Source: a virus. From it: DNA of 36,646 bases. The notes under the pieces are model-generated. The model had not been told where the DNA came from. It was given only the letters and a program-made list of their open reading frames with translations, and searched no databases. The DNA lies in IMG/VR virus record IMGVR_UViG_3300005264_000096, positions 1 to 36,646 of that record; one strand, written 5' to 3'. A program made the translations under genes and the position numbers. Of the stretch, positions 6,888 through 34,088 are shown piece by piece (position 1 is the stretch's first letter; each line of letters begins with the position of its first letter).

Positions 6888-7019
6888 ATGCCAGAAGGAG
6901 GAAAATTTGGAGTGAAAAGAGCTACTGCAAATATCAGTAAGTTCTTGAAAAAAACACAATTTGACCACGGAAAAGGCTCAACATTTACACGAGCAAGTAC
7001 ACGACAGAAACATCAGTAA
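6888..7019 (+). CDS. Small basic protein before the PAPS-reductase-like gene (43 aa)
   Basis: The ATG at 6888 opens a frame ending at TAA 7017-7019, and the TAATG overlap couples it to the next gene. The product (MPEGGKFGVKRATANISKFL onward) is basic, Gly/Thr/Ser-rich and ends QKHQ. No family was recognised. The strong promoter and the coupled stop/start support a real gene. Confidence 0.6.
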   Translation: MPEGGKFGVKRATANISKFLKKTQFDHGKGSTFTRASTRQKHQ

Positions 7020-7702
7020 TGATAAAAGCGGTAAAAATCATTAACGAGGTAAAAAATCAGACCAATAGTATTATATTATTTCATTCAGGAGCTGGAAAAG
7101 ATAGTATAGCACTATTGGACTTGTTATATACTCGTTTTGATAAGGTTGTTTGTGTTTACATGTACATAATCAAAGACTTAGAACATATTAATAAATATAT
7201 CTACTGGACTAAGCGGAATTACAAAAACATTGAATTTATACAGTTCCCACATTTTGCGGTTTCCTCCTATGTCAAGGGTGGATTTATGGGTATAAAGAAA
7301 AACCCAAAGCAAAAATTATACACTCTTTCAGATATAACAGAAAGAGCAAGATTAAAAACTGGTATAGAGTGGGTCTGTTATGGTTTCAAGAAGACAGACA
7401 GTCTAAACAGGCGGTTAATGCTTAATGGTTATGAAATGGGAGGAATAAACAGACCAACAAGAAAGTTTTACCCTTTATCAGATTATAAAAATGGCGATGT
7501 TTTGCGATACATCAAAAATAGACGATTACCAACACCAATAAATTACGGAGGAAATCATCAAAGCTCAGGAACTGCATTAACAGATCTTAATTTTTTATTA
7601 TACTGTAAACGAAAGTTCCCAAATGACTACAATAAGATAATATCAACATATCCAGAAACGGAGCATAAAGTGGTAAGTTATGAAACAAGAGGAAATTACT
7701 AA
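7019..7702 (+). CDS. PAPS-reductase-like PP-loop protein (IbrA-type)
   Basis: The 227-aa protein has a PP-loop at residues 23-29 (SGAGKDS, in IILFHSGAGKDSIALLDLLY), the nucleotide-binding motif of PAPS reductases and ATP pyrophosphatases. Further matches are the basic RARLKTG and Arg-rich NRRLMLNGYEMGG segments, and YPLSDYKNGDVLRYIKNRRL, which resembles the W/Y-P-L-x-D-W-x-x-x-D-V motif of the family. It overlaps a ParB-like gene by 23 bases. This pairing is that of IbrA/IbrB, known as regulators of immunoglobulin-binding protein genes in E. coli and common in phages. DndC-like sulfur chemistry is another possibility. True sulfate reduction is unlikely. Confidence 0.8.
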   Translation: MIKAVKIINEVKNQTNSIILFHSGAGKDSIALLDLLYTRFDKVVCVYMYIIKDLEHINKYIYWTKRNYKNIEFIQFPHFAVSSYVKGGFMGIKKNPKQKLYTLSDITERARLKTGIEWVCYGFKKTDSLNRRLMLNGYEMGGINRPTRKFYPLSDYKNGDVLRYIKNRRLPTPINYGGNHQSSGTALTDLNFLLYCKRKFPNDYNKIISTYPETEHKVVSYETRGNY

Positions 7703-8390
7703 ATTTCAAAATACAAATCAATCAAAGGTTTTAAGGAGCAGTATAAAATTTGCATCCTACAACCCTCGTACTATTTCAGAAAAAAGTTTAAAAGCCTTAA
7801 AGGCTAATATTAAGCGTATTGGTTTACTTGGTGGAATAGTCATAAATAAAAAAACAAGCAATATAGTATCTGGACACCAAAGGGTTACAGCTTTAGACCA
7901 ATTAAACAAGTATAAGGAGGAAACAAAAGAAAATGATTATACTTTTATTGCTGAGATTGTGGAACTTGATGAAATTGCAGAAAAAGAACAAAATGTCTTT
8001 ATGAATTCGACATCAGCACAAGGAGAGTTTGACAATGAGAAATTAAGCTTATTACTTCCAGACATCGACTATAAGAATGCAGGACTTGACGACTACGACA
8101 TCGGAATTATTGCAGCTGAAAGCCCAAATATAAACTTTGGCAACAATTCGGAGGTAGAAGAGGATATACAAGAAATGGATAAACCCTTTGAAGACCGAAA
8201 AGAGGCAATAAAAGAAAAAAAGCAAAAAGCACAGGAAAAAATAGAAAACGACATGAACGAGGGAGACCCTTATTTCACCGTAACATTTGATAGTTACCAA
8301 AACAAAGCGGAATTTCTTGAAACTCTGGGCTTTAACGCTCAGGATAGGTATATAAAAGGAGAACTTTTATTTGATAAAATAAGCGAATAA
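7680..8390 (+). CDS. ParB/Srx-fold protein (IbrB-type)
   Basis: Residues 20-75 carry the ParB N-terminal fold: SYNPRTISEKSLKALKANI, then GGIVINK, then IVSGHQRVTAL, in which SGHQR (64-68) matches the conserved G-x-R/H-R nucleotide-binding box. The middle (ELDEIAEKEQNVFMNSTSAQ) matches phage ParB-like proteins, while the C-terminal third is an acidic/basic helix plus a small domain. The start at 7680 overlaps the PAPS-reductase-like gene, so the two are probably co-translated and act together. Current knowledge of the fold points to CTP/ATP binding and DNA association. It is unlikely to be a plasmid partition protein because no ParA is present. Confidence 0.8.
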   Translation: MKQEEITKFQNTNQSKVLRSSIKFASYNPRTISEKSLKALKANIKRIGLLGGIVINKKTSNIVSGHQRVTALDQLNKYKEETKENDYTFIAEIVELDEIAEKEQNVFMNSTSAQGEFDNEKLSLLLPDIDYKNAGLDDYDIGIIAAESPNINFGNNSEVEEDIQEMDKPFEDRKEAIKEKKQKAQEKIENDMNEGDPYFTVTFDSYQNKAEFLETLGFNAQDRYIKGELLFDKISE

Positions 8391-10378: not shown

Positions 10379-10440
10379 TTATTAAAGTATGTTAAAATAT
10401 GTTAAATAGTTGCACACGTAAAATAAAAATTGTTCATTTA
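10379..10440 (+). promoter_or_regulatory. Decamer-type promoter with weakened -7 box, ahead of cassette block A
   Basis: Decamers TTATTAAAGT, ATGTTAAAAT and ATGTTAAATA (10379-10408) abut GTTG (10409-10412). Twenty bases on, the -7 position is TTCATTTA (10433-10440), two changes away from the parental TTTATTTG at 5514. It points into the first cassette block and would act like an array promoter, though probably a weaker one. Confidence 0.55.
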
Positions 10441-10469
10441 TGTAGGGCTTAATCATTAACATAACTGCA

Positions 10470-10546
10470 TATAACGACCTATGTATAGTTTGAAAGCCAT
10501 GCGATAAACCTTAATTGGCTTTTTAACTATACATTTTGTTATAGCC
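10470..10546 (+). repeat. attC-like site A1
   Basis: The 5' box TATAAC (10470-10475) is followed by a 19-base arm (10481-10499) that pairs at 17 of 19 positions with 10516-10534, around a 16-base loop. The 3' box is GTTATAGCC (10538-10546). Outer AAC/GTT boxes, a long imperfect stem and a two-base internal mismatch all match attC architecture. It precedes the first cassette gene. Confidence 0.75.
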
Positions 10547-10565
10547 AGTTATTAAAATAAAAAAG

Positions 10566-10763
10566 ATGGAAAAAATGACGATTAAAGAAAATATAATTGC
10601 AACAATAAGCGATTTATGTAGTGATTTTTTATACTATGACAGAAAGGAAGATGAAGATTTAAGTATGAAACAGCTAAATAAAGCCGTTGCTGATGGAGAA
10701 GTGACTGTTGATGAAATGGTCTCTGAGTTTAGAAAAAATTTAGAGAATACATTCAAGGCTTAA
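10566..10763 (+). CDS. Small acidic phage/cassette protein (65 aa)
   Basis: The product runs MEKMTIKENIIATISDLCSD, then FLYYDRKEDEDLSMKQLNKA, with a C-terminal helix VTVDEMVSEFRKNLENTF. I recall short phage proteins with the same DFLYYxRKEDEDL and EITVDEIV layout, but no function. It is the sole gene of cassette 1, bounded by GTTATAGCC and GGCTATAAC. A second ATG at 10575 would give 62 aa. Confidence 0.65.
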   Translation: MEKMTIKENIIATISDLCSDFLYYDRKEDEDLSMKQLNKAVADGEVTVDEMVSEFRKNLENTFKA

Positions 10764-10765
10764 TT

Positions 10766-10838
10766 GGCTATAACGTTTAGCGTATGCGGTCGTTGCCGTA
10801 ATTGAAACACGAATTATTAATATAAAAACTAATTAAAT
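10766..10838 (+). repeat. Decayed attC-like site A2
   Basis: GGCTATAAC (10766-10774) is the exact complement of the cassette 1 start box. The following sequence can form only a weak stem around TGCGG...CCGTA, and no GTT box precedes the next gene. The 3' half of the site appears lost, leaving cassette 2 without a start box. Confidence 0.5.
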
Positions 10839-11195
10839 ATGGAAAATAAAACTTCAAATAAAAAAGAAATTAAGGCAATGCCGTATGACGCATTGTTATG
10901 CCCCGTTGATTTATTTCGCTATTTTGTGAAAAAACAATATGAGGGAGTAGAAATAAGTAACGAAGATATAGATGAATTACGAATTGAATTTGCGAAATAC
11001 TTACACAAATTAACCCTAACCGATAAGCAAAAGGAAAACATATTGCCTAAAAGTACTTTTGATGTGATATTAAATGCTGAACATCCATTAAAAATGCACG
11101 GATTTGAAGTTGCTTATGTTTTTCATTTTGCAACATTCATTAAAAAAATGCAAGAAGAAGCAAAGAAACAAGGTTATTCTCCTAATGGGGCATAA
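10839..11195 (+). CDS. Unknown cassette protein (118 aa)
   Basis: No family was recognised. The protein is helical and mixed-charge (DLFRYFVKKQYEGVEISNED; EVAYVFHFATFIKKMQEEAK), with no signal or membrane segment. Its TAA stop lies inside the 5' box of the following attC-like site (GCATAAC, 11190-11196), the tight packing usual for integron cassettes. No promoter is evident in front of it. Confidence 0.6.
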   Translation: MENKTSNKKEIKAMPYDALLCPVDLFRYFVKKQYEGVEISNEDIDELRIEFAKYLHKLTLTDKQKENILPKSTFDVILNAEHPLKMHGFEVAYVFHFATFIKKMQEEAKKQGYSPNGA

Positions 11196-11260
11196 CGGCA
11201 TACTTACTTAAACTGAAAAATGTTTTTACATTTTTTTGTTTTAAGCAATATGTTAAGGGC
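11190..11260 (+). repeat. attC-like site A3 (first 68-bp direct-repeat copy)
   Basis: The boxes are GCATAAC (11190-11196) and GTTAAGGGC (11252-11260). The arm at 11204-11222 pairs imperfectly with 11229-11248 (TTACTTAAACTG and its partner CATTTTTTTGTTTTAAGCAA), with unpaired bases in the stem. Bases 11193-11260 recur at 11689-11756 with one mismatch. Confidence 0.8.
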
Positions 11261-11283
11261 ATTAATTTTTAATTTACATATTT

Positions 11284-11691
11284 ATGAGCAGAGTTTTAGC
11301 AATAGGAAATAATAATGCAGGTTCAAGAACTGCAATCGAAGCAATAAATAATTTAAAAAATCACGGACACGAAGTAGTTGTCTTAAAAAACGAAAAAGAT
11401 ATGAATACAGACCATGTGAAAAATTTGCCTTTGTTAGCTGCAATATCAATGTTTGAACAATTAGGCAGAAATGATTATGACAATAGAAGCGGATTAGATA
11501 ATCAAGAGCAGGAAATTTACGCTTACGGAAATATATCATTAATCAAAGAATATAATTTAATTATTGCTAAAAAATCAAAACTATCAAAAAGAAAAAGAGA
11601 TATTGTTGTAAGTCGTTTAGCTTACGAACTCAAAAATAATAATATTTATGATTACGAGAAAGAGCAAGTTGTAGGTTACAGTTGTTCTTAA
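11284..11691 (+). CDS. Unknown cassette protein (135 aa)
   Basis: Residues 1-38 (MSRVLAIGNNNAGSRTAIEA, then VVVLKNE) read like a beta-alpha-beta start with a Gly/Asn-rich loop. The remainder is helical and basic. No catalytic motif was recognised. The gene lies between two almost identical 68-bp attC-like repeats in direct orientation, and its TAA falls inside the second one. It is therefore a self-contained cassette that homologous or site-specific recombination could excise cleanly. Confidence 0.6.
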   Translation: MSRVLAIGNNNAGSRTAIEAINNLKNHGHEVVVLKNEKDMNTDHVKNLPLLAAISMFEQLGRNDYDNRSGLDNQEQEIYAYGNISLIKEYNLIIAKKSKLSKRKRDIVVSRLAYELKNNNIYDYEKEQVVGYSCS

Positions 11692-11756
11692 CGGCATACT
11701 TGCTTAAACTGAAAAATGTTTTTACATTTTTTTGTTTTAAGCAATATGTTAAGGGC
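11684..11756 (+). repeat. attC-like site A4 (second 68-bp direct-repeat copy)
   Basis: The boxes are GTTCTTAAC (11684-11692) and GTTAAGGGC (11748-11756), and arm 11700-11718 pairs with 11725-11744. The core 11689-11756 differs from 11193-11260 only by G for A at 11702, while the outer 5' box instead matches its own cassette's start box at 7 of 9 positions. Confidence 0.8.
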
Positions 11757-11817
11757 TTCTTCTTTTATCCGAGCCAAAAAAAATATTTTAATTATTAACT
11801 ATATAAAATTTAAAATC

Positions 11818-12273
11818 ATGAATATTGAATATGTAGAAAACGGTGTTAATTTCGGTGAAACTTTTGTATCACTTGACGAAATTACAAAAAAAGTAAATAA
11901 AGTAAAAGTAAAAAATCAAAAACTCAGTTTAATGACAATTGAGTGGGATGGAGGAAGAGGTTTTGATGGTTGTTGTGAGCAATATACAGATAGTATAGAA
12001 AATCTTAAAAGAATAAAAGAAATTCTAATTGGAAAAACTATTAATTTTGGAGAAATTGCAGGCAAACATTCAGAAATATATGGAGAAATGGAGGAATGCG
12101 ATTTTAATATAAGTGAAGAAAATAAAGATGTTACAGATTTTTTATCAAAGCACCCATCAGGACATGAATATGACCATTCTTTTTTACATACTTTTAACGA
12201 TTGGCTATATGATGCAGATGAAGATGAAGTTTCAGAAACTGAAAAAACAGATTTTTTAAAAATATTGAAATAA
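11818..12273 (+). CDS. Unknown acidic cassette protein (151 aa)
   Basis: The ATG at 11818 is chosen because the longer frame from 11716 would start inside the attC-like hairpin. The product (MNIEYVENGVNFGETFVSLD onward) is acidic, with two cysteines in GFDGCCEQY, His-containing HPSGHEYDHSFLHTF and a very acidic tail (DADEDEVSETE). It resembles small immunity- or antitoxin-like cytosolic proteins in composition only. The flanking boxes GTTAAGGGC and GCCCTTAAC are an exact complement pair. Confidence 0.6.
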   Translation: MNIEYVENGVNFGETFVSLDEITKKVNKVKVKNQKLSLMTIEWDGGRGFDGCCEQYTDSIENLKRIKEILIGKTINFGEIAGKHSEIYGEMEECDFNISEENKDVTDFLSKHPSGHEYDHSFLHTFNDWLYDADEDEVSETEKTDFLKILK

Positions 12274-12280
12274 AATATTA

Positions 12281-12378
12281 GTTAAGGGTAGTGGCTTTGC
12301 TATTGCCCTTAACGAATAGTGTTTGTGGTGAAAATTTGTTTTTCACAAATTTATAACATCAAAAACAATGTTATACGC
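12281..12378 (+). repeat. attC-like site A5 with an extra minimal box pair
   Basis: GTTAAGGG (12281-12288) and GCCCTTAAC (12305-12313) bracket AGTGGCTTTGCTATTG, which also occurs (with one extra T) at 33525 beside array B. The main palindrome follows: TTTGTGGTGAAAA (12322-12334) pairs with TTTTTCACAAA (12339-12349), leaving extrahelical bases. The 3' box GTTATACGC (12370-12378) starts the next cassette. The short bracketed piece looks like an empty cassette or partial site. The 238-bp gap here holds no gene. Confidence 0.7.
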
Positions 12379-12437
12379 TTTATTTTCAATCGTATAGCAT
12401 TATAAAGAAAAATAATCTAAAAACAAACACTAAAACA

Positions 12438-12469
12438 TTTGATTTAATAAATAAATTGTTTTATATTTG
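12438..12469 (+). promoter_or_regulatory. Cassette-internal Bacteroidota-type promoter
   Basis: TTTG (12438-12441), 20 bases and TATATTTG (12462-12469) are a full match to the Bacteroidota promoter pattern, 43 bases before the ATG at 12512. Cassette 5 is thus expressed independently of its position in the array. Confidence 0.75.
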
Positions 12470-12511
12470 TAACATCAAAAGCAATCAAGCTGACATGTAA
12501 AAAAAGAAATT

Positions 12512-12931
12512 ATGAAAAATCAAGAAATTTATTTAGGAAATGGCTGTTTATATGCAAGATTTGAAAACAATACACTTTCGTTTGAGGGTAGCAAAATTAC
12601 TACATCTCAGGTGGTAGGAATTGAGGAATATACCTTGTTAAAAGGTGGTGCGTTAATTAAAAATGAATGGTCTAAGCCGTTTGATGCTGTTGGTGGTGGA
12701 ATGCAGGAAAACCAAACACTTGAAGTTTTTTTGAAAAAATCAGAAACTTGCATAGTTTTATGTAATGCTCAAAATCAAATAGATAGTTATATTCAATTTA
12801 AAAATGAGAATGGAACTTTGAAATTTAAAGTTATAGCTGAAGAATGTTATTATACTAATGAATTTCAGGGTATTATTGAGAATAAAATAATAAGCGAAAA
12901 AAAATTTAGAAAATATATAGAAAATATATAG
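12512..12931 (+). CDS. Unknown protein paired with a small XRE regulator (139 aa)
   Basis: No family was recognised. The first half is beta-rich (YLGNGCLYARFENNTLSFEG; VVGIEEYTLLKGGALI) and has a Gly-rich turn AVGGGMQEN. The second half ends in a basic helix (NKIISEKKFRKYIENI). It is followed after three bases by an HTH gene, under a strong promoter of its own. The pair could be a toxin/antitoxin-like or defence module, but no toxin motif is visible. Confidence 0.6.
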   Translation: MKNQEIYLGNGCLYARFENNTLSFEGSKITTSQVVGIEEYTLLKGGALIKNEWSKPFDAVGGGMQENQTLEVFLKKSETCIVLCNAQNQIDSYIQFKNENGTLKFKVIAEECYYTNEFQGIIENKIISEKKFRKYIENI

Positions 12932-12934
12932 AAA

Positions 12935-13159
12935 ATGCAAATTAAAAAACTTAGAAATAAAAAAGGGATTACACAGCAAGAGCTTGCAAATCGTTTAGAT
13001 AAGAAATTTCAATACATTTCCAATATTGAAACTGGAAAGCGAAATGTTAGCCTTGAAATGTATTCAGAAATATGCATTGCATTAGGTTATACGGAACTTG
13101 AAACACTTCAATTAATAGCCAATAAACTTGGTTATTCGTGTGTTTTGAGTTGCGTATAA
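12935..13159 (+). CDS. XRE-family helix-turn-helix regulator (74 aa)
   Basis: Residues 4-58 are a canonical Cro/CI-type HTH: IKKLRNKKGITQQELANRLD, then FQYISNIETGKRNVSLEMYS, including the QQELA and ISNIETGKR recognition segments. It shares the cassette promoter with the gene before it and probably represses that promoter. Its TAA lies inside GCGTATAAC, the cassette's closing box. It is the only clear HTH repressor in the window, yet it sits in accessory DNA, so it need not be the phage's own lysogeny repressor. Confidence 0.85.
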   Translation: MQIKKLRNKKGITQQELANRLDKKFQYISNIETGKRNVSLEMYSEICIALGYTELETLQLIANKLGYSCVLSCV

Positions 13160-13245
13160 CAGGATGCTTTATTTACCGCCATTGTACTAATAACGCTATA
13201 ATTATATGAGTATGTGCGAGTTAATAGGGTTTGACAATTATAAAA
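13157..13245 (+). repeat. 89-bp inverted repeat, copy at the distal edge of array A
   Basis: Bases 13157-13245 match the reverse complement of 32024-32112 at 88 of 89 positions, G for A being the only difference. The match begins inside the closing box of the last cassette and runs through a start of coding sequence (MSM-C/Y-ELIGFDNYK). Both arrays end against this sequence. Confidence 0.95.
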
Positions 13246-13277: not shown

Positions 13278-13447
13278 CTATGTTTATTTGCAAACTGCTG
13301 AAAGTAGATGTAATAATAAGCCTAACACCTGAGGAAATGGCGAAAGTTTGGGAGGAATTAGATTCAACAGCAGTTGAGCAAAATGAAAACACGTCAGCCG
13401 ACTGGGCAGGACTTACAGGAATACATAATAATACAGATTATTTTTAA
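13250..13447 (+). CDS. Unknown small protein (65 aa)
   Basis: The product begins MLRETRKKIAMFICKLLKVD, a basic amphipathic N-terminal helix, followed by SLTPEEMAKVWEELDST and a polar tail. It has no recognised family. Its ATG lies within the truncated gene fragment, so translation could depend on readthrough from the array. A strong terminator follows at 13463. Confidence 0.45.
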   Translation: MLRETRKKIAMFICKLLKVDVIISLTPEEMAKVWEELDSTAVEQNENTSADWAGLTGIHNNTDYF

Positions 13448-13462
13448 GCCCCTATATTTATT

Positions 13463-13502: not shown

Positions 13503-13565
13503 ATATTAAGATATGTTAAGAAATGTTAATTTAATTGCACATGTAAAACAGAAGTTGTATATTTG
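13503..13565 (+). promoter_or_regulatory. Decamer-type promoter with perfect -7 box
   Basis: Decamers ATATTAAGAT, ATGTTAAGAA and ATGTTAATTT (13503-13532) lie directly before ATTG (13534-13537), with TATATTTG at 13558-13565 after 20 bases. The 13-base core TTGCACATGTAAA closely resembles that at 5491 and 10410. It drives the short gene at 13608. Confidence 0.75.
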
Positions 13566-28449: not shown

Positions 28450-28778
28450 TGGAAGAAAACGACATATTAATAGAGAATACAGATGTTGCAGTACTAAATG
28501 GAGACTTTGACATACAAGACTGTAATAATCAAAACTTAAAGCACCTGATTATAGCAGTACCGAGCAATTATGTAATTTCGCCAAAAGTGGGAGCTTCTGT
28601 TTATACGTTTCAAAATATGCCAGTTACAGACCCAAGAGAATTATTTGCAAAAATATCTAATGAATTAAAAAATGACGGATATAAAACGCCTGTTTTCGGA
28701 GGTTCAAGCGATTTAGAAAGCACAGACTTAGAAGTTTCAGCAATAAGGATTAAAACACCTATAAGGAATATAATATGA
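28449..28778 (+). CDS. Baseplate wedge protein, W/gp25-like (Mu gp46 position)
   Basis: The 109-aa product follows the pattern D-V-A-V-L-N-G-D-F-D-I-Q-D, then NLKHLIIAVPSNYVISPKVG, then a helix RELFAKISNELKNDGYK. Small gp25/W-like lysozyme-fold wedge proteins have the same layout, with no catalytic role. Start and stop overlap both neighbours. Identification is by pattern and order. Confidence 0.62.
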   Translation: MEENDILIENTDVAVLNGDFDIQDCNNQNLKHLIIAVPSNYVISPKVGASVYTFQNMPVTDPRELFAKISNELKNDGYKTPVFGGSSDLESTDLEVSAIRIKTPIRNII

Positions 28779-29938
28779 TAAGCACAGTAAAATATAATCA
28801 AAATATATTTGATGCCTGTATTGATAAATATGGGAGTATTGCGTATGTCGCTCAGTTTATCAAAGAAAATTCTTTAAAATATGATAGCTTAATAGTACAA
28901 GGGCAAGAACTTATAACGCAGGAGAAAGGGAATGAAAACGTAAAAGATTTTTATTCAAGGAATAAAATTGTTCCTGCACGAGGGCAGTATATACCACCAC
29001 CCCCTCCTCCCCCCTCTCTTAGTTTTTGGGTGGTCGGCAGTACATCTTTTGACCCAGTAATAGTAGCATCTGAAATAGCAGAATTTGATTTTGGAGATGG
29101 AACAAGTGAAACAACAACAAACAGCCCTACACACGTTTACGCAGATACAGAAGACTATTTAGTTAAGATTTATTTAAGTGATTTGGGGTTGATAACTCGA
29201 TTAAATTTAGTTGGAGATAAATTAAAGGGGATGTTAGATGTATCACTACTAACTAATTTAGATGTCCTATATTGCTATAATAATCAATTAACAGATTTAT
29301 CAAGTAATGTTAATTTAACTCGTTTAATTTGCCATTCTAACCAATTAACAGAATTATCAAGTAATATTAATTTAACTCGTTTAACTTGCCATTCTAACCA
29401 ATTAACAGAATTAGATTTATCAAGTAGTATTAATTTAACTTATTTAGAGGCCCAGACTAACAAATTAACAGAATTAGATTTATCAAGTAATGTTAATTTA
29501 ACTTATTTAGAGTGTTCATCTAACAAATTAACACCCCCTGATTTATCAAATAACGTTAATCTACGTACTTTGAAGTGTTCATCTAACCAATTAACAGAAT
29601 TAGATTTATCAAATAACGTTAATCTACGTACTTTGAAGTGTTCATCTAACCAATTAACAGAATTAGATTTATCACAATTAACTAATTTAACTCAGTTGCT
29701 TTGTTACACAAATCAGATTTCAATATTAGATTTACAAAGCCCTAAACTAAATTACATTGATTTTAGGAGCAACAATATGACCTCAGCACAAGTTGACCAA
29801 GTTTGGATTAACTTAGACAACAGCACAACACAAATAGATGGTTATGCAGATGGAGGAGGCACAAATGATGCCCCAACAAGTGCAAGTCAAACAGCACGAG
29901 ATAATTTAACAGCTAACGGCTGGACATTAATTTTATAA
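28775..29938 (+). CDS. LysM-like / PKD-like / leucine-rich-repeat tail protein
   Basis: The 387-aa protein appears modular. Residues 9-48 (FDACIDKYGSIAYVAQFIKE, then LIVQGQELI) resemble a tail LysM/gpX-like anchor. A seven-proline linker (74-80) is followed by a short PKD-like beta domain with FDFGDGTSE (104-112). About eight 21-residue leucine-rich repeats (161-330) match N-L-x-x-L-x-C-x-x-N-x-L-T-x-L-D-L-S. The C-terminal cap (QVDQVWINLDNSTTQIDGY, then TARDNLTANGWTLIL) is also seen in Bacteroidota LRR proteins. Placement after the wedge gene and the LRR suggest receptor binding or adhesion at the tail tip. Confidence 0.75.
   Translation: MISTVKYNQNIFDACIDKYGSIAYVAQFIKENSLKYDSLIVQGQELITQEKGNENVKDFYSRNKIVPARGQYIPPPPPPPSLSFWVVGSTSFDPVIVASEIAEFDFGDGTSETTTNSPTHVYADTEDYLVKIYLSDLGLITRLNLVGDKLKGMLDVSLLTNLDVLYCYNNQLTDLSSNVNLTRLICHSNQLTELSSNINLTRLTCHSNQLTELDLSSSINLTYLEAQTNKLTELDLSSNVNLTYLECSSNKLTPPDLSNNVNLRTLKCSSNQLTELDLSNNVNLRTLKCSSNQLTELDLSQLTNLTQLLCYTNQISILDLQSPKLNYIDFRSNNMTSAQVDQVWINLDNSTTQIDGYADGGGTNDAPTSASQTARDNLTANGWTLIL
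29255..29779 (+). repeat. 63-bp leucine-rich-repeat units with identical tandem copies
   Basis: Units of 21 codons (two are 19) follow one another. The copies at 29540-29602 and 29603-29665 are identical in DNA and the identity continues to 29674. The earlier units at about 29310-29500 share long runs such as TCTAACCAATTAACAGAATT. The two short units lack the LD of ELDLS, consistent with in-frame deletion. Confidence 0.88.
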
Positions 29939-31134: not shown

Positions 31135-31839
31135 ATGACACAAGAAATATTGATAACGTTAATTACAGCATTCTTAGGAAGTGCAACGACTATATTAACA
31201 TTTTGGATAAAAACCAAAAATGATAATAAAAAATTGTTATTAGTCGTTGCAAATGAGAATAATAAGATATTAACGGAGGTCTCAAAAAATGATAAGATGC
31301 AGACTGAACGATTAGAGTATCAGTCTGCCCAACTTCAACGTTTAGAAAATAGAATAAAAGGAGTTGAGGCAAAAGTTAACAATTTGCAAGTAACAAGCTC
31401 GTTAATTCAAAATGATGTCGCAGAAAATAAAGAACTACACAAATATAGCCGTTTTTATGGAGACCTAGCAACAGAAATAGATGACGAGCATATATCATGT
31501 ATTGATGAGTATGGAATTAAAAGGCGAACTCCTACTTATGACGAACTCGGAGCAATAAAAGAAGCCATAAAAGACGTGCTTTTCACTGTTATTAAGAAGA
31601 ATTTTAATGTAGCAAACAGACGTTATATAAATGATTTATTTGATATTAAATTAAATGCAATAATAAATAACGATTATAATGATTTAAAACAGTCGTTTAT
31701 ATCATTTTCCTCTACGATTTACAATATTTGCAACAAAAAAGAAAACGGAGTAAGAAGGCTTGCTATGACAGAGAAAACAAAAGAATTTATACAAGAGGTG
31801 TATTCTGTATATATAGGAATAAAAAAAGAGGCTATTTAA
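31135..31839 (+). CDS. Membrane-anchored coiled-coil protein, possible holin or lysis factor (234 aa)
   Basis: Residues 4-24 are one hydrophobic helix (EILITLITAFLGSATTILTF). A charged coiled coil (about 30-100; RLEYQSAQLQRLENRIKGVE) and a helical C-terminal domain follow. It is the last gene of the late operon, a common site for lysis genes, but no holin family is clear and no endolysin was found next to it. The TTTAAA around its stop lies inside a two-way terminator. Confidence 0.5.
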   Translation: MTQEILITLITAFLGSATTILTFWIKTKNDNKKLLLVVANENNKILTEVSKNDKMQTERLEYQSAQLQRLENRIKGVEAKVNNLQVTSSLIQNDVAENKELHKYSRFYGDLATEIDDEHISCIDEYGIKRRTPTYDELGAIKEAIKDVLFTVIKKNFNVANRRYINDLFDIKLNAIINNDYNDLKQSFISFSSTIYNICNKKENGVRRLAMTEKTKEFIQEVYSVYIGIKKEAI

Positions 31840-31848
31840 AGCCTCTTT
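31825..31848. terminator. Two-way terminator between converging operons
   Basis: AAAGAGGC (31825-31832) pairs with GCCTCTTT (31841-31848) across an 8-base loop. It has T-rich flanks when read leftward and TTT when read rightward. The stop codons of both converging genes (31837-31839 on + and 31836-31838 on -) lie in the loop. Confidence 0.85.
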
Positions 31849-32063
31849 AATCTATGTTTTAAACTTTTCAAAGAATAAAATTTCCGCTTGTTATCTTTCA
31901 CTAAGTAATACCCTTCTATTTTATTTTTGAAACTCCGTTTTATTTTTCGTTCAGAAATATACTTAAATTTACATAATTTATCTTTAATTTTATATGCTTT
32001 TCGAGATAAAGTTTTGTCCTTTATTTTATAATTGTCAAACCCTATTAACTCGTACATACTCAT
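31836..32063 (-). CDS. Small basic protein beyond array B (75 aa)
   Basis: The product (MSMYELIGFDNYKIKDKTLS onward) is very basic and ends LKSLKHRLKRL, suggesting RNA or DNA contact. No family was recognised. Its first 13 codons and leader lie in the 89-bp sequence repeated at 13157-13245, where a truncated copy exists. It is last on the leftward strand and ends in the shared terminator. Confidence 0.55.
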   Translation of the reverse strand: MSMYELIGFDNYKIKDKTLSRKAYKIKDKLCKFKYISERKIKRSFKNKIEGYYLVKDNKRKFYSLKSLKHRLKRL

Positions 32064-32112
32064 ATAATTATAGCGTTATTAGTACAATGGCGGTAAATAA
32101 AGCATCCTGTTA
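32024..32112 (-). repeat. 89-bp inverted repeat, copy at the distal edge of array B
   Basis: It matches the reverse complement of 13157-13245 with one difference. Reading along the minus strand it begins inside the closing box of the last cassette (GCACTTAAC, shared only from TAAC) and ends 40 bases into the small basic protein gene. Confidence 0.95.
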
Positions 32113-32119
32113 AGTGCAA

Positions 32120-32446
32120 CTAAGCAACCGATATATTAGACAATTCTTCTTCTAATTCTTCAATTCTTTTTTCTGCATTATTTAAGTCCTCACTTAAATC
32201 AGTTAATTGGTCGTTTGCTTTATCTCTCATTTCAGAATTTAAGTCTCGCAATTCTTCGATATTTGTTTCTACTTCTTCTGTAAAAATAAGTTTAAAGTAT
32301 TTATCAGTCATTTCCGATTTGTAATCATCGGAAATATTTGGTTGTATGTCGTCTATTAAATCGCCTAAATACTGCTCAACCCATTCTGATATTGAGTTTA
32401 AATTGGCATTTATTGTTGGACATGTTTGTTTGAAGTCTAGTTCCAT
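32120..32446 (-). CDS. Unknown acidic coiled-coil cassette protein (108 aa)
   Basis: The start at 32446 is chosen, because the longer frame from 32524 would run through the cassette leader and start box. The product begins MELDFKQTCPTINANLNSIS. It has an acidic helical body, and a clear heptad coiled coil lies at the end (DLNNAEKRIEELEEELSNIS). No family was recognised. It is the last cassette of array B. Confidence 0.6.
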   Translation of the reverse strand: MELDFKQTCPTINANLNSISEWVEQYLGDLIDDIQPNISDDYKSEMTDKYFKLIFTEEVETNIEELRDLNSEMRDKANDQLTDLSEDLNNAEKRIEELEEELSNISVA

Positions 32447-32509
32447 TTTTTGATATATTTTATAATAGTTTGTATTTTGATATTTATAAGCCTGAAAAGT
32501 AAAAATAAA

Positions 32510-32581
32510 GCACTTAACAGGCAATTTGAAGTCAGTTTTGCGAAAAGCAAAACCGCCTCAATATTGCTATTCGTTAAGTGC
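32510..32581 (-). repeat. attC-like site B2
   Basis: On the minus strand the 5' box is GCACTTAAC (forward 32573-32581) and the 3' box is GTTAAGTGC (forward 32510-32518). Arms at forward 32520-32541 and 32547-32568 pair over about 20 bases (GGCAATTTGAAG..GTTTTGC with GCAAAACC..ATTGCT), with one bulged base and a 5-base loop. This is the clearest attC-like palindrome in the window. Confidence 0.85.
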
Positions 32582-32583
32582 AA

Positions 32584-32910
32584 CTAAAACGGAAACACAC
32601 CAGACCATTCTTCCAATAAATCTAAGGTTGCTCCAACAAACTCAGAATTATTTTTTACTAAATTTTGAGTTTTATATAAAAGTCTTAATTTTCTTTCTGC
32701 CGTTTCAGTCAGTGGTAGTTTTTGGTTTTCAATAATTGGAGTATTTACAAACCGTAATCTTTCTGCGAAAACTGTAATTATATCGCCTTTTTCGGTTTGC
32801 ACTATTGCTACGCTTTCATTATCTGCATCAAATCCAAATTTATGAACAAATACAACAATATCTTCTTTCATGTCTAATACTTTTTGTAAAATCGCTTTTC
32901 TTAATTCCAT
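32584..32910 (-). CDS. Unknown cassette protein (108 aa)
   Basis: The product (MELRKAILQKVLDMKEDIVV, then FVHKFGFDADNESVAIVQTE) has an alpha/beta pattern with a small beta-sheet core (GDIITVFAERLRFV) and a C-terminal helix. No family was recognised. The stop lies three bases before its closing box, and a leader of about 60 bases separates the start box from the ATG. Confidence 0.6.
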   Translation of the reverse strand: MELRKAILQKVLDMKEDIVVFVHKFGFDADNESVAIVQTEKGDIITVFAERLRFVNTPIIENQKLPLTETAERKLRLLYKTQNLVKNNSEFVGATLDLLEEWSGVFPF

Positions 32911-32972
32911 TTTAATAAATATTTTAATAGTTAATAATTCTTTTTATTTATAGCCTGAAAAGTGAAAATAAA

Positions 32973-33054
32973 GCACTTAACAGGCAATTTGAAAACATTA
33001 AAAAAATTAAAAAGAAATTTTTTAAACGTTTCAATATTGCTATTCGTTATATTT
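32973..33054 (-). repeat. attC-like site B3
   Basis: On the minus strand the 5' box is AAATATAAC (forward 33046-33054) and the 3' box is GTTAAGTGC (forward 32973-32981). The arms (forward 32982-33007 and 33018-33043) pair imperfectly through AT-rich sequence. The outer parts GGCAATTTGAAAAC and GTTTCAATATTGCT are the clearest. The preceding gene's stop codon lies inside the 5' box. Confidence 0.78.
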
Positions 33055-33472
33055 AACTCAAAGACCGCTCATATTCTTCTTTTGTGGCAGGTATGAAATT
33101 TTCTAACTTATAATGACTACCAAATAGTTTTTCATTTGTATTTGCTCGCCAATATTCTCTCCCTTTCCATTTTAGTAGCTCCCAATCTGGTTTTACAACT
33201 TGCGTTTCTGATTTTATATAAGTAGGTAATTCCTCTCGTTTTCGTTCTTCCCACCAATTTAATTTTTGAAAAAGATGTGGATACATTTCTAAATTAACAA
33301 CTTTTAATCCTGATAAATTATTAATTTTACATCTTTTTAAATTTGTTAGAATTTCAGAAACTTCAATTTCTGTATCTTTATATTTAATTCGTTCCAAAAT
33401 ATCATTTTTTTTAAAAATACTATTTGGATATTCTGCAATAATTTTAAATCTTGGACTTAATAAATTTTCCAT
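33053..33472 (-). CDS. Unknown cassette protein (139 aa)
   Basis: Residues 1-45 look like a small beta domain (RFKIIAEYPNSIFKKNDILE). A hallmark-like segment follows (NLEMYPHLFQKLNWWEERKR), then a beta/aromatic C-terminus (WKGREYWRANTNEKLFGSHY). I recall similar Y-P-h-L-F-x-x-L-x-W-W-E-x-R proteins in flavobacterial phages and prophages, with no known function. The box pair GTTATATTT and AAATATAAC encloses it. Confidence 0.62.
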   Translation of the reverse strand: MENLLSPRFKIIAEYPNSIFKKNDILERIKYKDTEIEVSEILTNLKRCKINNLSGLKVVNLEMYPHLFQKLNWWEERKREELPTYIKSETQVVKPDWELLKWKGREYWRANTNEKLFGSHYKLENFIPATKEEYERSLS

Positions 33473-33502
33473 ATTTTTATTTGTATTAAAATGATTATCA
33501 AT

Positions 33503-33690
33503 AAATATAACATAGCTTGGTGTCAGTGGCTTTTGCTATTGGTTTGTAAATTTACTTAGTTCTTATTTTTTACTTTTTGCTGTAAAAGCTTAATAATAAG
33601 AAACATAACATTTGCTTAAAACAAGCGTGAAAAACGCCAGTTTTAGAGCAGTTGCCGTTAAGGTTAATTAACGTATATTCGTTATAAATA
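33503..33690 (-). repeat. Composite attC-like region B4 with a possible empty cassette
   Basis: The region ends on the minus strand with GTTATATTT (forward 33503-33511). A first palindrome lies at forward 33613-33652 (TTGCTTAAAACAAGCG with CGCCAGTTTTAGAGCAG), bounded by CATAAC (33605-33610) and GTTAAGG (33658-33664). A further GTTATAAAT lies at 33682-33690. Between the two sites about 90 bases have no gene. AGTGGCTTTTGCTATTG at 33525 recurs at 12290 with one T fewer. The whole 222-bp gap holds only these structures. Confidence 0.65.
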
Positions 33691-33695
33691 ATTTC

Positions 33696-34088
33696 TTAGT
33701 TGATTGTAACAGGAAACCTTAATGGATTATCAGCAAAACTAATCTCGTCATGTTTGTCAATTGTTTCGGTTGAGAAAAACATCACATTGTGATTATTACC
33801 GACTTCAATAGGATAACAATTGTCTAGTTTCATTTTTGTAAAAGAATATTGCAAGCAAGAAATTTTAGTGTTTATTATATTGCCGAAAAATAAAACAGAT
33901 GCGTAATAATTCCATCTAATAGAAAATTCAACTCCTCTATTTTCAAATAGAATAGTTTTATAAAAGTTTTGAGATTTTTTAGCTAATTTAGAATCTTTAT
34001 TTTTAATAACTTTCACATTATCAAAATGTTTCTTTATAAACTTAACTGTTTTTTTGAATGATTTATTTTGATTTATTATAGTTCTCAT
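33696..34088 (-). CDS. Unknown protein at the border of array B (130 aa)
   Basis: The product starts basic (MRTIINQNKSFKKTVKFIKK) and continues with beta-rich aromatic sequence (GVEFSIRWNYYASVLFFGNI). No family was recognised. It begins only four bases after the preceding leftward gene, with no start box, so it belongs to the leftward operon rather than to a cassette. The array follows its stop. Confidence 0.55.
   Translation of the reverse strand: MRTIINQNKSFKKTVKFIKKHFDNVKVIKNKDSKLAKKSQNFYKTILFENRGVEFSIRWNYYASVLFFGNIINTKISCLQYSFTKMKLDNCYPIEVGNNHNVMFFSTETIDKHDEISFADNPLRFPVTIN

Follow-up and report, generated by a model that had tools for sequence, protein, structure and literature searches.

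Integron-type gene cassettes in phages without an integrase gene, arranged in mirror image before an attI-like site

Integrons are the main known bacterial system for stockpiling and shuffling single genes. Here, we ask whether two runs of small genes in a virus genome are integron gene cassettes and, if so, how a phage that lacks an integrase could come to hold them. The window analyzed is the whole 36,646-base IMG/VR virus record IMGVR_UViG_3300005264_000096, a complete circular assembly by its 104-bp terminal repeat. It encodes a terminase, a Mu-type portal and a Clp-type protease, and the virus is thus a tailed phage, as an earlier note made from the letters alone had proposed. AT-rich DNA, TAnnTTTG promoter motifs and a single bacterial match point to a probable Bacteroidota host. 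We find that both arrays are best read as genuine integron gene cassettes, which a host integron integrase acting in trans would insert at an attI-like site of the phage, with the genes turned round and expressed from a phage promoter at the opposite end of the array. We put the probability of this reading, cassettes and mechanism together, at roughly three in four.

Array 1 occupies 10467-13160 on the plus strand, with five attC-type sites and five units in one orientation (10538-13160). Array 2 occupies 33665-32109 on the minus strand, with three intact units, three attC-type sites and one remnant. In seven of the eight window units (Table 1), the first nine bases (GTTnnnnnn) and the last nine (nnnnnnAAC) are exactly reverse-complementary; only unit 3 departs from this. 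The earlier note had described an integron-like cassette array whose boxes covary with the cassette starts. The array is confirmed, and the covariation holds everywhere except in that unit. A second region that it had named (31800-33800) proved to be a real minus-strand array, in which units A, B and C have exact boxes. Short gene units of one orientation are therefore flanked by two or more attC sites bearing AAC and GTT boxes, as in an integron cassette array or a cluster of attC sites lacking integron-integrases (CALIN). Single 9-nt box pairs were rejected as evidence, being not significant in so AT-rich a genome (23 observed, against a shuffle mean of 15.5), and for this reason we counted linked units whose ends bear an attC-like hairpin, using dinucleotide shuffles (n = 40). 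The window holds 15 such box-paired units (shuffle mean 0.10, maximum 1), and two related phages introduced below hold 17 (G004; mean 0.33) and 7 (G002; mean 0.25). The observed count was reached in 0 of 40 shuffles in each case. Rfam gave no match, and a covariance model of our own, from alignment A1, was discarded because RNAalifold found no base pairs.

With the phage gene at 31836-32063 as query, four virus contigs were recovered: G002 (IMGVR 3300033146_002002), G003 (3300019758_000196), G004 (3300019754_000002, circular) and G005 (3300019764_000020). All four have differing cassettes directly 5' of the homologue of that gene. An attC-derived pattern found a further phage, L148 (3300005264_000202), and a pattern derived from the array ends found contigs L150 and L151. 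After the last unit of the arrays stands a docking site, composed of AA|C, exactly 19 variable bases and then CATTRTACTAAWAACGCTRYAA or a close variant. It is present at both window arrays, in G002, G005 and L148, and at three separate places in G004, and thus recurs in four phage types besides the window. The earlier note had every unit ending in an attC; this is so for units 1 to 4, and unit 5 is followed instead by the attI-like phage site. Each docking site is preceded by a different cassette, and its AAC box usually pairs exactly with the start of that cassette, by at least six bases beyond GTT in all but two cases (five bases at G004 15685, four in L151). Tyrosine recombinases were absent, with no match to PF00589 or TIGR02249 in the window, G002, G004 or G005 and none to PF00589 in G001 or G003, which upholds the earlier statement that no integrase gene is present.

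Cassette turnover stops exactly at the boxes. G003 and G004 are identical at 2975 of 3000 positions to the right of AA|C and at 7 of 20 to its left. L151 and G004 share a left flank up to TTTAA|C (59/60 identical) and a right flank from AA|C (60/60), and between these flanks lie five cassettes in L151 and two in G004, unrelated to each other. The two pairs place the breakpoint at AA|C on both sides, so that the sequence between two units moves with the following unit and not with the preceding one. Gain and loss of this kind in related phages was the check that the earlier note had suggested. The relative L002, whose terminase is similar, shows no insertion at the place of window array 1, between its terminase gene and the one after it. 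The conserved site at every array end behaves like an attI and is a candidate for the one that an integrase would recognize. A tRNA-like sequence (L021 14290-14370; L151 2505-2585) lies shortly 3' of this site in G004 and L151.

The attC sites themselves are turned relative to the genes. We compared 27 phage-type sites (23 from phages and 4 from a bacterial contig described below) with 31 control sites from eight chromosomal Bacteroidota integrons that have intI and attI in place. Read in the gene frame, the phage-type sites have G after AAC and T before GTT (27/27 each), and a longer 5' spacer in 26 of 27. Extra bases lie mainly in the 3' arm at 12 of these sites and mainly in the 5' arm at 3. 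The controls have A or C after the first AAC and C before GTT (31/31 each), a longer 3' spacer in 30 of 31 and extra bases in the 5' arm in 29 of 31. In classic attC sites, the R' box is where recombination takes place. On the strand that is cut, the AAC of this box is usually followed by G, and extrahelical bases are found in the other arm (Bouvier 2009, PMC2727003). By these marks, the recombining box of the phage-type sites adjoins the end of the open reading frame (ORF), and since all polarity marks are mirrored relative to the controls, the attC is reversed relative to the genes. The hairpins, unpaired spacers and extrahelical bases are those of attC, with the extrahelical asymmetry weaker than that of the spacers. 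The earlier note was thus right about attC architecture and wrong to assume the classic orientation. Our own first idea by eye, that the extrahelical bases indicate classic polarity, was likewise overturned by the 27-versus-31-site comparison. Gene direction is secured for several cassettes by homology, to HTH_3 in the window, a D12 methyltransferase in G004 and an N6_N4 methyltransferase in G005. Among 78 intI loci surveyed, 35 had linked units, and in arrays 5' of intI about nine-tenths of the direction-assigned genes read away from intI (a tally of listed counts). Reversed genes are therefore a minority on chromosomes and universal in the phage-type set, where the usual arrangement, genes reading away from attI, is mirror-imaged at all 27 sites. 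Junctions and polarity are independent lines of evidence and agree that the docking site occupies the position of attI relative to attC polarity.

We propose that folded single-stranded cassettes would be inserted singly at the docking site (attC × attI), probably by a host integron integrase in trans. The crossover at AA|C would correspond to the canonical G|TT of the opposite strand. Each insertion there would leave the last gene adjoining the docking site, and the cassette genes would thus read toward a site standing, by attC polarity, where attI stands on chromosomes. Because they face it, their transcription would have to start at a phage promoter beyond the other end of the array. Immediately before the left junction in G004 and L151 stands TAGTTTTG, a fit to the Bacteroidota -7 promoter motif; at the best-resolved locus, about 12 nt separate its end from the left AA|C. 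Some units open with a leader that holds a TAnnTTTG motif of its own (window 12370-12505). The empty site at the best-resolved locus is predicted to read ...TAGTTTTGTGGAAATTTAA|CGAAAATCTTTACACACCCTCATTATAC..., or TAGTTTTGTGGAAATTTAACGAAAATCTTTACACACC as a search sequence. Near-identical phages would in this manner swap accessory-gene cassettes, including DNA methyltransferases in related phages, and may benefit from doing so.

Several observations weigh against this proposal. An exact-pattern search did not find the attI-like motif in 395 Bacteroidota genomes, and it was not found near 78 chromosomal intI genes; the phage sites score 35-57 bits, whereas the best intI-adjacent sequence reached 11 and was rejected as a match. 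No empty docking site was seen. The far-end promoter is predicted from its motif, which matches weakly at the arrays of the window itself, and the action of a host IntI at the phage sites is something we infer. Extrahelical-base counts are tied in 12 of the 27 phage-type sites, and in AT content the phage-type sites far exceed the chromosomal controls. Lastly, the boxes are imperfect in unit 3 and in the remnant that leads array 2, which may make some cassettes immobile.

Among 84,980 species genomes, the attC sequence had one exact match, on an 18-kb mobile-element-like contig of a Bacteroidales metagenome-assembled genome (MAG), and plasmids and isolate phages had none. The earlier note had suggested looking for such sites beside intI, and none was found there. 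The matching contig was rejected as the source integron because no integrase was recognized on it, and an IntI-like frame on MAG contig C29 fell below the IntI cut-off and had no adjoining array. The matching contig, C96 (L045; 17,999 bp), is unrelated to the phages and has an endolysin-like gene, flipped cassettes and no recognized tailed-phage hallmarks; the 3' part of unit B is 83% identical to a gene on it.

We consider it unlikely that a different recombinase, such as host XerCD or an unrecognized phage or plasmid enzyme, moves the cassettes instead of an integron integrase. These attC sequences have no linked intI, none of the nine tyrosine recombinase matches in the MAG with the cassette contig exceeds the IntI cut-off, and the attI-like motif is unlike chromosomal attI sites. 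However, the boxes, spacers and extrahelical bases form a known IntI substrate, and no recombinase common to the phages was found. Furthermore, phage attC sites are usable by IntI1 in vivo, five of six tested having recombined with attI1 (Qi et al. 2023, PMC9892861). Genuine IntI above the curated cut-off is present in 105 of the 395 sampled Bacteroidota genomes (~27%), which makes dependence on a host integrase plausible.

Rather unlikely, too, is the view that the arrays are fossils, put together in another place and passed between phages today solely through homologous recombination at conserved flanks. Phage genomes are mosaic, and the whole-array exchange between L151 and G004 could have come about by two homologous crossovers, one in each conserved flank. 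Yet this leaves unexplained why varied last cassettes and boxes join exactly at AA|C in unrelated phages, and why boxes match within units. An ordinary CALIN in classic orientation, in which each attC belongs to the preceding gene and is cut at G|TT and the constant terminal sequence is a degenerate last attC, seems to us highly improbable. As in classic cassettes, the AAC box follows the ORFs, with a stop codon in or near it (inside the box in units 2, 3 and 5). Nevertheless, different last cassettes meet the common downstream sequence exactly at AA|C, every polarity mark is the mirror image of the 31 controls, and the two junction pairs already contradict such an arrangement. We give almost no credence to the idea that the hairpins are terminators or RNA regulators with boxes paired by chance, for all the frequency of single pairs in an AT-rich genome, because linked hairpin-flanked units are absent from shuffles, the 3' arms end in a T-GTT box without the T-run of a GC-rich intrinsic terminator (as the earlier note had argued), and gene turnover stops at the boxes, which refutes it.

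The preferred reading, host-driven insertion at a phage site with reversed genes, resembles several known systems. Phage-borne CALINs, integrase-less arrays in lytic phages such as Polaribacter phage P12002L, have been described (Qi et al. 2023, PMC9892861). Like our arrays, they lack an integrase and carry methyltransferase cassettes, and one of these phages has a Bacteroidota host; unlike our study, that work reports no shared phage attI-like site, junction-exact turnover or systematic gene inversion (Qi 2023, PMC9892861). The attC directions of P12002L were called "divergent" (Qi 2023, PMC9892861). By eye, its sites at ~30055-30005 and after 30952 (minus strand) look flipped too, which would connect our finding to a cultured system. 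Sedentary chromosomal Bacteroidota integrons share the AAC/GTT boxes, the unit-level complementarity and the position of attI by attC polarity, but they encode intI and have other attI sequences, GC-richer attC sites and genes that read away from attI. The class 1 integron (attI1-Pc-cassettes) likewise combines a promoter, a docking site and exchangeable promoterless genes, whereas here an integrase gene is missing, the cassette genes point toward the docking site and the phage promoter would lie at the far end of the array. "Reverse integrons" such as that of Treponema denticola also have an altered relative orientation within the integron. There, intI is turned, and not the cassette genes relative to attC.

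In the open-access literature, we found no paper on a phage attI-like site across unrelated phages, on junction-exact turnover of phage cassettes or on systematically inverted arrays. Phage-borne cassettes were already known (Qi 2023); what appears to be new is the attI-like site, together with the inverted genes and the turnover at exact junctions. Our findings suggest that some phages maintain a landing pad of their own, on which the host's integron enzyme would place genes. If so, phages would be active participants in the cassette economy and not accidental carriers. The complete reversal of the genes also allows the accepted view to be tested directly that the choice of attC strand serves to orient genes toward the integron promoter; in phages, polarity would be kept while genes and promoter were turned round. 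Since related phages carry DNA methyltransferase cassettes, the system may supply counter-defense genes. The fullest version of this idea is a new class of phage-owned integron platform with a dedicated multi-copy attI, inverted-gene cassettes and a far-end promoter, through which unrelated Bacteroidota phages would exploit host integrases to swap accessory genes, probably for counter-defense. We regard the odds on that version as even.

Table 1. Features of the two cassette arrays in the window (aa, amino acids).
Feature	Position	Strand	Remarks
attC0, left end of array 1	10467-10546	+	AAC 10473-10475, GTT 10538-10540
Unit 1, ORF 10566-10763 (65 aa)	10538-10774	+	exact box pair GTTATAGCC/GGCTATAAC
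attC1	10766-10903	+	long, 138 nt; AAC/GTT boxes
Unit 2, ORF ending 11195	10895-11196	+	exact box pair GTTATGCCC/GGGCATAAC; stop codon in box
attC2	11188-11260	+	92% identity to attC3
Unit 3, ORF 11284-11691 (135 aa)	11252-11692	+	boxes GTTAAGGGC vs GTTCTTAAC, incomplete match
attC3	11684-11756	+	92% identity to attC2
Unit 4, ORF 11818-12273 (151 aa)	11748-12313	+	exact box pair GTTAAGGGC/GCCCTTAAC
attC4	12305-12378	+	AAC/GTT boxes
Unit 5, ORFs 12512-12931 and 12935-13159	12370-13160	+	exact box pair GTTATACGC/GCGTATAAC
attI-like site, end of array 1	13158-13212	+	AA|C-N19-CATTGTACTAATAACGCTATAA
Truncated start of 75-aa phage gene copy	13205-13245	+	copy of the gene after array 2
Leading attC-type site, left end of array 2	33665-33601	-	then ORF-less remnant to 33511
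Unit A, ORF 33472-33053 (139 aa)	33511-33046	-	exact box pair GTTATATTT/AAATATAAC
attC-type site, units A/B	32973-33054	-	AAC/GTT boxes
Unit B, ORF 32910-32584 (108 aa)	32981-32573	-	exact box pair GTTAAGTGC/GCACTTAAC
attC-type site, units B/C	32510-32581	-	AAC/GTT boxes
Unit C, ORF 32446-32120, coiled-coil-like	32518-32109	-	exact box pair GTTAAGTGC/GCACTTAAC
attI-like site, end of array 2	32057-32111	-	shared docking motif
75-aa phage gene (MSMYELIGFDNYKIKD...)	31836-32063	-	3' of attI-like site in several phages

Among the window cassettes, a function could be assigned only to the helix-turn-helix regulator encoded by the second ORF of unit 5 (HTH_3, Pfam PF01381, E = 2.9e-17). The unit 4 protein has a weak match to phrog_5848. 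The ORF of unit 2 (10839-11195) begins within attC1, and an in-frame GTG at 10926 falls inside the unit. The attI-like ends of the two arrays are 95% identical over 101 bp. A promoter-like repeat, TTGCACRyGTAAAA..., has two copies, one before array 1 (10380-10445) and one after it (13504-13560). An attC spacer in G002 (13400-13462) is identical at 63 of 63 positions to one in L148 (5431-5369); these two phages are unrelated, and so are the cassettes on either side of the spacer.

The basic protein of 75-80 aa encoded at 31836-32063 and in relatives is conserved and sits where intI would stand relative to attI. It had no match in Pfam or PHROG, and its AlphaFold model has a predicted local distance difference test score (pLDDT) of only 56, too low in quality for use. 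Its gene is decayed or absent at some attI-like sites. An obligatory partnership with the docking site was rejected, since only one of the three G004 sites has the gene, and its copies in L148 and at array 1 are decayed and truncated, respectively.

Elsewhere in the window, a probable tail-associated protein (28775-29938) has leucine-rich repeats, which produce false attC-like matches. At 7019-8390, a ParB-like gene comes after a PAPS-reductase-like one (weak Pfam match); the two form an IbrAB-like pair, frequent in phages.

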